From Saccharopolyspora aridisoli (GTDB taxonomy: Bacteria > Actinomycetota > Actinomycetes > Mycobacteriales > Pseudonocardiaceae): a stretch of DNA of 64,000 bases. Shown here in pieces: positions 26,810 to 29,692 of the stretch (position 1 is the stretch's first letter; every line of letters starts with the position of its first letter). The DNA is taken from contig NZ_SMKV01000025.1 of assembly GCF_004348445.1 (NCBI RefSeq), forward strand, positions 18,041-82,040, given 5' to 3'. The position numbers and the translations under genes were made by a program. Under the pieces are notes generated by a model. The model did not search any database and was not told the origin of the DNA. It worked only from the letters and a program-made list of their open reading frames with translations.

Positions 26810-27156
26810 GCTGCTCGCTCCTGCTTGCGGGATTCGACTTCTTCCGGACGTGGGTGCTTGCGCGGACGACCGCGCCTGCGCTTGCGCGCGACGACCGCGC
26901 CGCGTTCGAAGATCTCGCCTCCCCAGACCCCCCAGGGTTCGCAGCGATCCAGCGCGCCGGCCAGGCACTCGGTCTTGATCGGGCAGTCGCTGCACAGGAC
27001 CTTGGCCGCCTCCAGGTCGGACGGGTTCTCGGCGAACCACAGGTCCGGGTCCCGGCGGCAGGGCAAGCGGCGTTGCAGCGATGAGCCCGCAGGTTGCTCG
27101 GGCTCGGACTGCGAGTCCACGGCCGACTCGGGTATCGGCACACTCGCGGTGAACAT
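26806..27156 (-). CDS. whiB7: WhiB7-type iron-sulfur transcriptional regulator
   Basis: WhiB7 binds the principal sigma factor and switches on intrinsic antibiotic-resistance genes. Of 116 residues, the four iron-sulfur cysteines are in LPCRRDP and VLCSDCPIKTEC. The EPWGVWGGE turn follows. The C-terminus carries the AT-hook RRRGRPRKHPRP, which separates WhiB7 from other WhiB proteins. ATG 27156 has TGGAGGAAG upstream. It lies between uvrD2 and the ABC1 kinase gene, as in Mycobacterium. A long leader with an upstream ORF and terminator precedes it. Confidence 0.96.
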   Translation of the reverse strand: MFTASVPIPESAVDSQSEPEQPAGSSLQRRLPCRRDPDLWFAENPSDLEAAKVLCSDCPIKTECLAGALDRCEPWGVWGGEIFERGAVVARKRRRGRPRKHPRPEEVESRKQERAA

Positions 27157-27235
27157 ACGACTTCCTCCAGTAGTCGATGGCAGGCGACTCGTGGTTGCGG
27201 ATGGATGTGGTTGTGGTCGTGGATCAACCAGGAAC

Positions 27236-27276
27236 ACAAAAAGGCCGCGGACCCGTTGGTGCAGGTCCGCGGCCTT
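27236..27276 (-). terminator. whiB7 leader attenuator (intrinsic terminator)
   Basis: On the minus strand AAGGCCGCGGACC pairs perfectly with GGTCCGCGGCCTT around a 10-base loop and is followed by TTTTTGTG. It stands between the upstream ORF stop and whiB7, so it should cut transcription short unless an alternative fold forms. GAGAGCC/GGCTTCTC (27279-27296) and the CTTCT/AGAAG inverted repeat (27274-27284) offer competing pairings. Confidence 0.9.
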
Positions 27277-27296
27277 CTGAGAAGCCTGGGGCTCTC

Positions 27297-27497
27297 CTAG
27301 ATCAGCGGATCCAGGAAAGACCAACGGACCGACCTGCGCGGGTGCTGCAGGGTCACCGGAACAAAGCGGTAGCCACGCGGCTTTTCGGCGCGCAGATCAT
27401 CGGCAATGGCGGCGACGAGCACGAAGGTGCCCGAGAGCAGCGAAACAACCCCGGCCACGAAGGAGCGCGGGGCGTTCGTGGTCTCGAAGATCTTCAC
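27297..27497 (-). CDS. Upstream ORF (leader peptide) of whiB7
   Basis: A 66-codon frame begins GTGAAGATC after AAGGAGGTGGGG, one of the strongest ribosome sites in the window. It ends with TAG one base before the first leader hairpin. The peptide (VKIFETTNAPRSFVAG ... SFLDPLI) has a hydrophobic middle (VVSLLSGTFVLVAAIA). In studied whiB7/wblC genes, slowed translation of the upstream ORF lets the leader escape the terminator. The arrangement here fits that model; the ORF's length and start are inferred. Confidence 0.75.
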   Translation of the reverse strand: MKIFETTNAPRSFVAGVVSLLSGTFVLVAAIADDLRAEKPRGYRFVPVTLQHPRRSVRWSFLDPLI

Positions 27498-27563
27498 TGT
27501 CCCCACCTCCTTCTCGGTCTACCGTCGGCGGATGCGGGCCAACTCGGCCCGCGCGTGTCTATG

Positions 27564-27604
27564 AGGCTATGTGCCGCGGGGGACAACCCGCAACATATTT
27601 TTGA
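27564..27604 (-). promoter_or_regulatory. whiB7 promoter with AT-rich WhiB7 element
   Basis: On the minus strand TTGCGG (27588-27593) and TAGCCT (27564-27569) lie 18 bases apart as -35 and -10. Directly upstream of the -35 is TCAAAAATAT (27595-27604), the AT-rich block needed for WhiB7 activation in studied promoters. This indicates self-activation. It begins 13 bases after the uvrD2 stop and gives a leader of about 400 nt. Confidence 0.82.
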
Positions 27605-27616
27605 CCTGCGGTTTTG

Positions 27617-29692
27617 CTAGTTCACCCGATTGATCAAGGCGAGAACGTCGCCGCCGAATTTCTGGATCTTCGTCGCGCCGATCCCGGAAATCCCGACCAG
27701 TGCGGACTCATCAGCCGGCCGCTGCTCGGCGATCGCGGTCAGCGTCGCGTCGGTGAACACCACGTAGGCGGGCACCTTCAGCTGCCGCGCGCGCTCGCTG
27801 CGCCACGCCTTGAGCTGTTCGAGCAGGTTCTCGTCGACGTCGGACGGGCAGCCCGAGCAGCGCCCGAGCTTGATGTCCATGGTGCTGACCAGCGTCGAGG
27901 AGCACACCCGGCACTGGGGTGTGATCGTCGCGGCCTGGCGGGCGGGCGGTTGCGGCTGCTTCGCCTTGCCGGGCAGCGCAGCAGGGTGGCCGTCGGGCAC
28001 GAGGTTGTAGACGAACCGGCTGCGACGCCGGTACCGGCGTCCCCCTGCGCGGGCCAGCGCCCAGGACAGGTGCAGGTGCTCGCGGGCGCGGGTGACGCCG
28101 ACGTAGAGCAGCCTGCGCTCCTCCTCGACCGCCGCGTCGGTGTCGGCGTGCTGGATCGGCAGCGTTCCCTCGACCAGGCCCGCGAGGAAAACCGCGTCCC
28201 ACTCCAGCCCCTTGGCCGCGTGCAGCGAAGCGAGCGTGACGCCCTCGACGGTCGGCGGGTGCTGCGCCTCGGCGCGGGCGTCGAGCTCGGCGACGTAGCG
28301 GCGCAGATCCGCGTCGGGGACCGTGGCGACAAGCCCTTCGGCGAGCTCGACCAGCGCGATCAGCGATTCCCACCGATCGCGGGCCGACCCACCCGCCGGT
28401 GGTTCGTCGGTGAGGCCCACCTCGACGAGGAGTTCGCGCACGGTCCTGGGCAGGTCCTCGGCGGTGGTGTCGCGGGCGATCGCGGTGCGCAGGGTCGCCA
28501 TGGCCTGGCGGATCTCGGCACGCGCGAAGAACCGCTCCCCGCCGCGCACCTGGTACGGGATCTCGGCGTCGGACAGCGCCTTCTCGTAGACCTCGGACTG
28601 GGCGTTGACGCGGAACAGGATCGCGATCTCCGACAGCGGCACGCCGCGCTTGGCCAGCTGCGCGATCTTGCGCGCGATGGCGTCGGCCTCATCGGTCTCG
28701 TCGTCGTACTCGGCGAAGTCCGGGCGCGGACCGTCCGGGCGCTGGCCGACCAGCTTCAAGCGGGTGCCGGCCGGGCGTTCTCGCGCGGCGCCGATGACCT
28801 GGTTGGCCAAGCCCACGACCTGCGGAGTCGACCGGTAGTCGCGTTCGAGGCGCACCACGGTCGCCTCGGGGTACTTGCGCGGGAAGTTGATCAGCCACTT
28901 CGGGGAGGCGCCCGCGAAGGAGTAGATGGTCTGGTTGGCGTCGCCGACCACGGTCAGGTCGTCGCGGTTGCCGACCCAAGCGTCGAGCACGCGCGCCTGC
29001 AGCGGGTTGACGTCCTGGTACTCGTCGACGACGAAGGATCGGTACTGGCTGCGGAACTCCTCGGCGATGTCCTCGCGGTCCTCCAGGATCGCGGCGATGT
29101 GCAGCAGCAGGTCGTCGAAGTCGAGCAGCTGCGCGCCGCTCTTGAGCTTCTCGTACCCGGCGAACGCCTTGGCGATCAGCTCCGGCAGGATCGGCGTCTC
29201 GCGACCGGCCTGCTGCGCGGCCGCCGGATACTGCTCGGGGCTGATCAGCGAGGACTTCGACCACTCGATCTCGCTGGCGAGGTCGCGCACGTCCTCCCGC
29301 TCCGTGGACAGCCCCAGCCGGTTCGCGGCCTGCATGACCAGGCGGAACTTGTTGTCGGTGAGCTGCCACATCTGGGCGTCGTGGACGCGCGGCCAGAAGT
29401 AGCGGAGCTGTCGGAAGGCCGCCGCGTGGAAGGTCTGGGCCTGCACTCCCGCGGCCCCGAGCTCGCGCAACCTGGTGCGCATCTCGCCCGCGGCGCGAGC
29501 TGTGAAGGTCACGGCCAGGACCTGCCGGGGCGTCACCAGCCCGCGCTGGACGAGGTAGGCGATGCGGTGGGTGATGGTCCGGGTCTTCCCCGTTCCCGCA
29601 CCGGCCAGCACGCACACGGGTCCGCGCGGTGCGATCACGGCCTGCCGCTGCTCCGGGTCCAAACCTTCCAGGAGACGCGGTTGATCGGCCAT
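27617..29692 (-). CDS. uvrD2: Superfamily I DNA helicase UvrD2 with HRDC domain
   Basis: This is a 3'-5' DNA helicase of about 691 residues. Motif Q is [13 protein letters not shown] and Walker A is [12 protein letters not shown]. Walker B is VVDEYQDVN. Motif III is [15 protein letters not shown]. Motif IV-VI sequences include [18 protein letters not shown] and [12 protein letters not shown] four-cysteine zinc motif (CRVCSS ... RCSGCP) and a C-terminal HRDC domain ([20 protein letters not shown]) are the UvrD2 marks of mycobacteria and relatives. ATG 29692 is chosen over an in-frame start 8 codons earlier. Confidence 0.95.

Follow-up and report, generated by a model that had tools for sequence, protein, structure and literature searches.

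The whiB7 leader of Saccharopolyspora aridisoli, judged by its sequence, is a member of the known whiB7/wblC kind of attenuator that depends on an upstream ORF (uORF). We consider it quite probable that this leader is a transcription attenuator in which the uORF ends in a hairpin, a segment of the uORF pairs with a terminator arm, and slow or stalled ribosomes allow read-through. The promoter boxes, the Shine-Dalgarno (SD) sequence, the uORF, the terminator and the complementary strands are all present in the DNA, and they are conserved and covary in relatives. The sensor likely reads the transit of ribosomes along the uORF, and not the peptide or a special codon run, because the peptide body appears to evolve without frame-specific constraint. 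We give even chances to a broader proposal, in which the uORF is a ribosome runway that is blind to the peptide: its body would drift class-wide, the SD sequence, the frame, the stop position and a stop-centred antiterminator would be kept, and there would be no dedicated stall site.

The intrinsic resistance of actinobacteria to many ribosome-targeting drugs is under the control of WhiB7, and the genus Saccharopolyspora includes antibiotic producers. This raises the question of how one leader could sense so many drugs.

Organization of the leader and neighboring genes

In the window (the whole stretch of 64,000 nucleotides that was analyzed), the leader occupies positions 27602-27157 of the minus strand, between the stop codon of a helicase gene (27617) and whiB7, and its coordinates were checked letter by letter. 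All features described below lie on this strand. The gene 5' of the leader (29716-27617) encodes a UvrD-family helicase with an HRDC domain, as assigned by domain matches. After a gap of 14 nt, the helicase stop is followed by an AT-rich block, AAAAATAT (27602-27595), which adjoins the -35 box TTGCGG (27593-27588), and an 18-bp spacer separates the latter from the -10 box TAGCCT (27569-27564). AT-rich blocks at the -35 box are a feature of WhiB7-activated promoters, and this one would have a role in WhiB7 autoactivation. Just 3' of the predicted transcription start there is also a GC-rich hairpin, GCGGGCC-GAGUU-GGCCCGC (window positions 27534-27554). The SD sequence AAGGAGG (27512-27506) is located 8 nt 5' of the GTG codon (27497) of a 66-codon uORF that ends with TAG at 27299-27297; based on sequence and conservation, the uORF (27497-27297) is predicted to be translated.

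The whiB7 gene begins with ATG at 27156 and extends to 26806. Its product contains a WhiB domain (PF02467, 50.4 bits against a Pfam cut-off of 23.6; no NCBIfam match) and is 92-95% identical to WhiB7 of four named Saccharopolyspora loci, the closest named one being S. endophytica (95%). Near its C-terminus it has the sequence RRGRPRKH, which we take to be the AT-hook that marks WhiB7. The parts listed in an earlier note on this DNA (the AT-rich block, -35 and -10 boxes, SD sequence, GTG uORF, 13-bp terminator and U-tract) were all located in the minus-strand sequence, and our data support its identification of a whiB7 attenuation leader as well as the general logic it proposed. The uORF peptide matched nothing in Pfam or NCBIfam. 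At the gathering score, Rfam gave no match to the leader and only a tmRNA and two tRNAs in the whole window; two sub-threshold matches were found in the region 27100-27700 (E 0.21 and 0.26).

Conservation of the layout in relatives

We gathered 241 loci (L009-L249), which included 80 named loci, 22 from the same genus, 19 new ones from a further set of 30, 60 family regions and 60 class regions. They gave 213 usable actinobacterial leaders, the S. aridisoli leader included, after 22 duplicates, two loci in which no uORF was found (L046 and L218) and four with a mis-parsed uORF (L054, L066, L206 and L232) were left out. The duplicate check covered loci L009-L189, and some of the 213 leaders are near-identical; eight same-genus genomes had a leader identical to those of named Saccharopolyspora loci. 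Close pairs were picked greedily with each leader used once, which retained 50 of 201 pairs, and in 47 of the 50 both members had an SD score of at least 6. Gordonia leaders diverge: L024 has another terminator core, and L046 and L054 are among the loci left out.

A promoter pattern resembling AAAW-N0-6-TTG-N20-24-TANNN was observed 5' of the uORF in 172 of the 213 leaders and in 0/213 shuffled upstream regions (one mononucleotide shuffle per leader). The best SD match agreed in 6 or 7 of 7 positions in 176/213 leaders. In addition, the distance from the end of the ORF with the strongest SD sequence to the terminator core that follows was 15-45 nt in 189/213 leaders, compared with 47/426 for the other two frames read from the same start. 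The earlier note had made conservation among relatives a test of its reading. The start, the stop position, the terminator and the uORF-terminator pairing are indeed conserved, whereas the peptide codons mostly are not.

The terminator and a predicted stop-codon hairpin

Sequence and folding identified an intrinsic terminator (27276-27236) with arms AAGGCCGCGGACC (27276-27264) and GGTCCGCGGCCTT (27253-27241) and a U-tract that extends to 27236. Its stem has 13 Watson-Crick base pairs plus two inner pairs and closes a 6-nt loop. The 165-nt segment 27400-27236 folds at -87 kcal/mol, compared with -62.65 +/- 4.77 kcal/mol in 200 shuffles (z -5.1, 0/200 as low). The first arm opens with CGCGGA in 180/213 leaders and with CACGGAC in 15/213, suggesting that sequence is kept and not shape alone, although one terminator finder accepted GCCRYGG-like cores only, allowing a single mismatch, and a second finder gave such cores a bonus. 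With the finder that required this core, a GCCRYGG-like hairpin was present in each of 159 non-duplicate loci. The first-arm sequence is apparently frozen because of its complementarity to a segment close to the uORF 3' end.

Folding and conservation also predict a hairpin around the stop codon, CUUUCCUGGAUC-CGCU-GAUCUAGGAGAG (27319-27292), with UAG inside. Alone it has 12 bp (-16.5 kcal/mol), and a 9-bp core (27316-27295) persists in the best antiterminator fold. When the 213 leaders were folded in sliding 40-nt windows (15 shuffles each), the mean z was flat along the uORF, staying between +0.08 and -0.28 from position -160 to position -45; it was -1.31 at the stop codon, where 42% of leaders had z < -1.5, and -4.9 at the terminator. 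The two hairpin halves matched their own partners better (-12.43) than permuted ones (-10.29 +/- 0.20; 0/100 as good). Within the genus, six of the 12 pairs were kept in 17-18 of 18 distinct sequences and the other pairs were weaker. A within-genus covariation test on 19 of the 25 genus-side sequences remained inside the shuffle range for this hairpin, and the helices hardly vary.

Elsewhere, a stop hairpin of the form CUGAC...GUCAG is common to two groups of leaders (L182, L161 and L178, and L151, L169 and L045), and the reading frame through it differs between them: the stop is a UAG at or close to the loop in the first group and a UGA within the arm in the second. This difference amounts to a natural frame-change experiment.

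Two helices that the earlier note had proposed as competitors of the terminator stem did not hold up. GAGAGCC/GGCTTCTC (27296-27279) cannot compete with that stem (27276-27241), because the two do not overlap and both form together (-39.7 kcal/mol). Part of this hairpin (27294-27282) is even included in the best antiterminator fold that was predicted; among 19 genus sequences it was paired in 77.8% of cells versus 74.1% for the stop hairpin, and neither clearly beats shuffles. The other helix, CTTCT/AGAAG (27284-27280 with 27278-27274), would have a one-base loop and cannot form as written.

Predicted pairing of the uORF with the terminator arm

Folding and cross-clade covariation point to a different antiterminator, which likely consists of GGUCCGU inside the uORF (27330-27324) paired with GCGGACC (27270-27264), a part of the terminator 5' arm, and encloses the stop-codon hairpin. 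For a transcript truncated directly after the first arm, the best fold (-35.3 kcal/mol) encloses the 9-bp stop hairpin and pairs all 13 nt of the arm with 27330-27324 and 27322-27317. The six outer pairs had a probability of 0.99-1.00 in all 25 genus-side leaders (segments cut 3 nt before the element), and the extension of this helix to the GCC of the arm exceeded 0.5 in 5/25 only. In the segment 27345-27257, which has a few more loop-side bases, a rival pairing of GCAGGUC with GACCUGC is the minimum-energy fold; the centroid is unchanged.

Across the 213 leaders, pairing of each uORF with its own arm averaged -11.73 kcal/mol, which is 1.06 kcal/mol better than with arms permuted (-10.67 +/- 0.10; 0/2000 permutations as low). 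GTTCC was present in the uORF of 45/73 leaders with GGAAC arms versus 7/112 with GGAC arms, and in the mycobacterial set the CCACGGAC arms are opposite GTCCGT in 15/15 leaders and opposite GTCCGTGG in 11/15. Relatedness inflates the permutation result, and we therefore also compared edge-disjoint pairs on the WhiB7 tree: among 14 such pairs, 10 covaried in the expected direction, two in the opposite direction and two were ties. RNAalifold joined pre-stop uORF bases to terminator-arm bases in seven of eight clade alignments, which together covered 115/213 leaders and carry clade labels of our own; in the remaining one ('ERSP') it gave the stop hairpin and local arm pairing only. All eight alignments gave covariation terms close to zero (-0.3 to 0.8), and therefore within-clade support for the uORF-arm helix rests on conservation. 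Against synonymous shuffles, the energy of the best uORF-arm duplex showed no gain (median p 0.50; p<=0.05 in 1/91 leaders). The antiterminator segment as a whole, however, folded better than these shuffles at p<=0.05 in 28/91 leaders and better than resampled codons in 14/91.

The terminator alone has a predicted energy of -31.8 kcal/mol, and the terminator with the stop hairpin -48.3 kcal/mol, compared with -26.3 kcal/mol for the outer helix with the 12-bp stop hairpin. As the terminator state is the more stable of the two, antitermination would have to be kinetic. In the proposed mechanism, the uORF is translated, and ribosomes at its stop codon would melt the stop hairpin, hold the outer strands apart and free the terminator arm, leading to termination. 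If ribosomes were stalled or absent, the nested antiterminator could form before the second terminator arm is made. RNA polymerase would then read on into whiB7 when ribosomes are stalled or slow, and WhiB7 would amplify its own promoter.

We also represented the ribosome in silico as a 31-nt mask. Over the 213 leaders, the predicted sequestering of the terminator arm was 0.75 without a mask and fell only to 0.64 with the mask at the stop codon; in the S. aridisoli leader, where GGUCCGU and the stop codon are 24 nt apart, the corresponding values were 0.99 and 0.98. A value of 0.59 was obtained when the A site was placed 12-24 nt 5' of the stop codon, nearer the outer strand. Because the stop-codon mask has a weak effect, the opening step is left to sterics or timing, and in S. 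aridisoli the antiterminator would have to be opened by ribosomes in one of these ways.

Evolution of the uORF peptide

In the body of the uORF (codon 2 to codon -21), the 47 non-overlapping close pairs with SD scores of at least 6 in both members had mismatches of 0.132, 0.147 and 0.130 at codon positions 1, 2 and 3, whereas in whiB7 of the same pairs the values were 0.038, 0.029 and 0.165, a coding pattern. In 10 Saccharopolyspora-side pairs, mismatches over the whole uORF were 0.076, 0.093 and 0.085. We also computed pN/pS for all 50 pairs. In the uORF body it was 0.98 [0.87-1.10] in frame and 0.95 and 0.86 in the wrong frames; for the whole uORF the in-frame value was 0.90 [0.82-1.00], compared with 0.92 and 0.87 in the other frames; whiB7 gave 0.15 in frame versus 2.2 and 2.9 out. 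Frame-specific constraint was thus not detected in the uORF body in these 47-50 close pairs. The last 20 codons had a pN/pS of 0.67 [0.54-0.83] in frame versus 0.85 and 1.02 in the wrong frames, suggesting mild in-frame constraint in a region that overlaps the RNA pairings, where the two causes are inseparable.

Mismatches per nt were 0.145 in the uORF body, 0.083 in the last 60 nt, 0.065 between the stop codon and the terminator, and 0.034 in the terminator. At synonymous sites, the uORF has diverged less than whiB7 (pS 0.135 vs 0.211). Of the uORF indels, 52/93 had lengths that were multiples of three, a count biased by picking start and stop in one frame, compared with 21/98 and 1/25 in controls. 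A helicase control had a pN/pS of 0.58, with frame picking unsure there, and both this value and the indel count were set aside.

GC content by uORF codon position (0.67/0.58/0.82) is gene-like, and composition is therefore not free. Acidic residues are few in the uORF bodies of the 213 leaders: Asp and Glu together make up 5.7%, which is low compared with the usual proteome average. Gene-like GC content and scarce acidic residues despite the drift possibly reflect selection for smooth elongation.

An N-terminal motif of Pseudonocardiaceae uORFs, TPGHLxSG, was considered as a peptide-level feature and rejected: in 38 chosen leaders conservation was 0.65/0.64/0.68 at codon positions 1/2/3, and codons 2-25 had a pN/pS of 1.04 [0.86-1.26]. 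At the nucleotide level, an early uORF block of approximately ACC CCT GGC YAC CYC NTG TCC GGG G (about 27473-27449, codons 9-17) is also found in L018, L122 and other Pseudonocardiaceae, with codon positions equally conserved in the 38 chosen leaders. Its role might be to pause RNA polymerase or to supply a second strand for the antiterminator.

Alternative explanations

Other resistance leaders work by an arrest peptide (ErmCL-like), and the whiB7 uORF might likewise encode a drug-sensing peptide with a sequence-set stall at one place, most likely near the C-terminal end. The mild constraint on the last 20 codons would agree with such a stall, as would the DPLI end of most genus-side uORFs. 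However, DPLI is mostly spelled GATC-N4-GATC, and these are the arms of the stop hairpin, which also account for it. Moreover, the CUGAC...GUCAG hairpin is read in another frame in L182, L161 and L178 (SLT end) than in L151, L169 and L045 (SP), and the uORF body shows no frame-specific constraint. An arrest peptide is therefore improbable. We are similarly doubtful of an amino-acid-specific attenuator, which would sense one charged tRNA via a codon run 5' of the antiterminator strand. Mycobacterial uORFs are Ala-rich, and whiB7/wblC expression responds to amino-acid starvation according to an excerpt of PMC11550727, but the codon positions drift equally and the genus and family alignments contain no conserved codon or residue run.

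Two further possibilities leave the uORF or the terminator without a regulatory role, and we regard both as very improbable. The strong SD sequence and the gene-like GC content would suit a small functional protein with incidental hairpins; against this, the peptide body is not conserved, Pfam and NCBIfam gave no match to it, and its stop codon is within a hairpin whose halves covary. Similarly, the terminator might merely end the helicase transcript, as the helicase gene is directly 5' on the same strand, but a separate promoter pattern, an SD sequence and the uORF lie in between, and covariation links the uORF to the terminator arm. Sensing of ribosome transit, in turn, would fit the reported breadth of the response, which includes several drug classes and amino-acid starvation. 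If the uORF is indeed a peptide-blind runway, the switch would measure whether ribosomes finish some 40-130 codons in time, which would explain how a single sensor responds to almost all kinds of translation block. A recoded peptide should then keep regulation, whereas a moved stop codon or a broken outer strand should lose it. A further implication is that sensors of this type would be overlooked when conserved leader peptides are searched for.

Relation to known attenuators

The primary accounts of the whiB7/wblC uORF attenuator, in Mycobacterium and Streptomyces, are reportedly those of Burian & Thompson (2018) and Lee et al. (2022). Excerpts of other papers describe the whiB7 attenuation mechanism in actinobacteria (PMC10727445, PMC9618640, PMC11550727 and PMC13393426). 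As excerpted, the mycobacterial and Streptomyces attenuators resemble the present leader in having a uORF and a Rho-independent terminator ahead of whiB7, and an antiterminator whose sequence overlaps both of these elements. The Saccharopolyspora leader differs from those described in these excerpts in its GATC-N4-GATC stop hairpin, in an outer strand located 25-31 nt before the stop codon and in a uORF of 66 codons. In the same four sources, the parts considered contain no statement of a drifting uORF peptide body or a stop-centred hairpin.

Two other leaders may be compared on the basis of similar excerpts. E. coli toiL (PMC12121999) resembles whiB7 in that one uORF responds to several classes of ribosome-targeting drug; unlike in the reading of whiB7 proposed here, stalling in toiL is described as occurring at specific codons. 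An excerpt of the same paper states that stalling within the whiB7 uORF had been untested. The M. tuberculosis ilvB1 leader (PMC13236596) also has a terminator/antiterminator switch set by the uORF ribosome, and in its model, as excerpted, the antiterminator is prevented from forming by a ribosome that has reached the stop codon. The proposed sensor of ilvB1 is an LVVI codon run, whereas no conserved codon run was seen in the genus and family alignments of the whiB7 uORF.

A small ORF downstream of whiB7

On the minus strand, a 67-residue ORF (26809-26606) overlaps the stop codon of whiB7 (ATGA). Its product had no Pfam or NCBIfam match. By tblastn, among the matches listed, it was detected at E < 1e-3 in at least 38 other loci (loci > 2000 nt), and it likely encodes a whiB7-coupled small protein.
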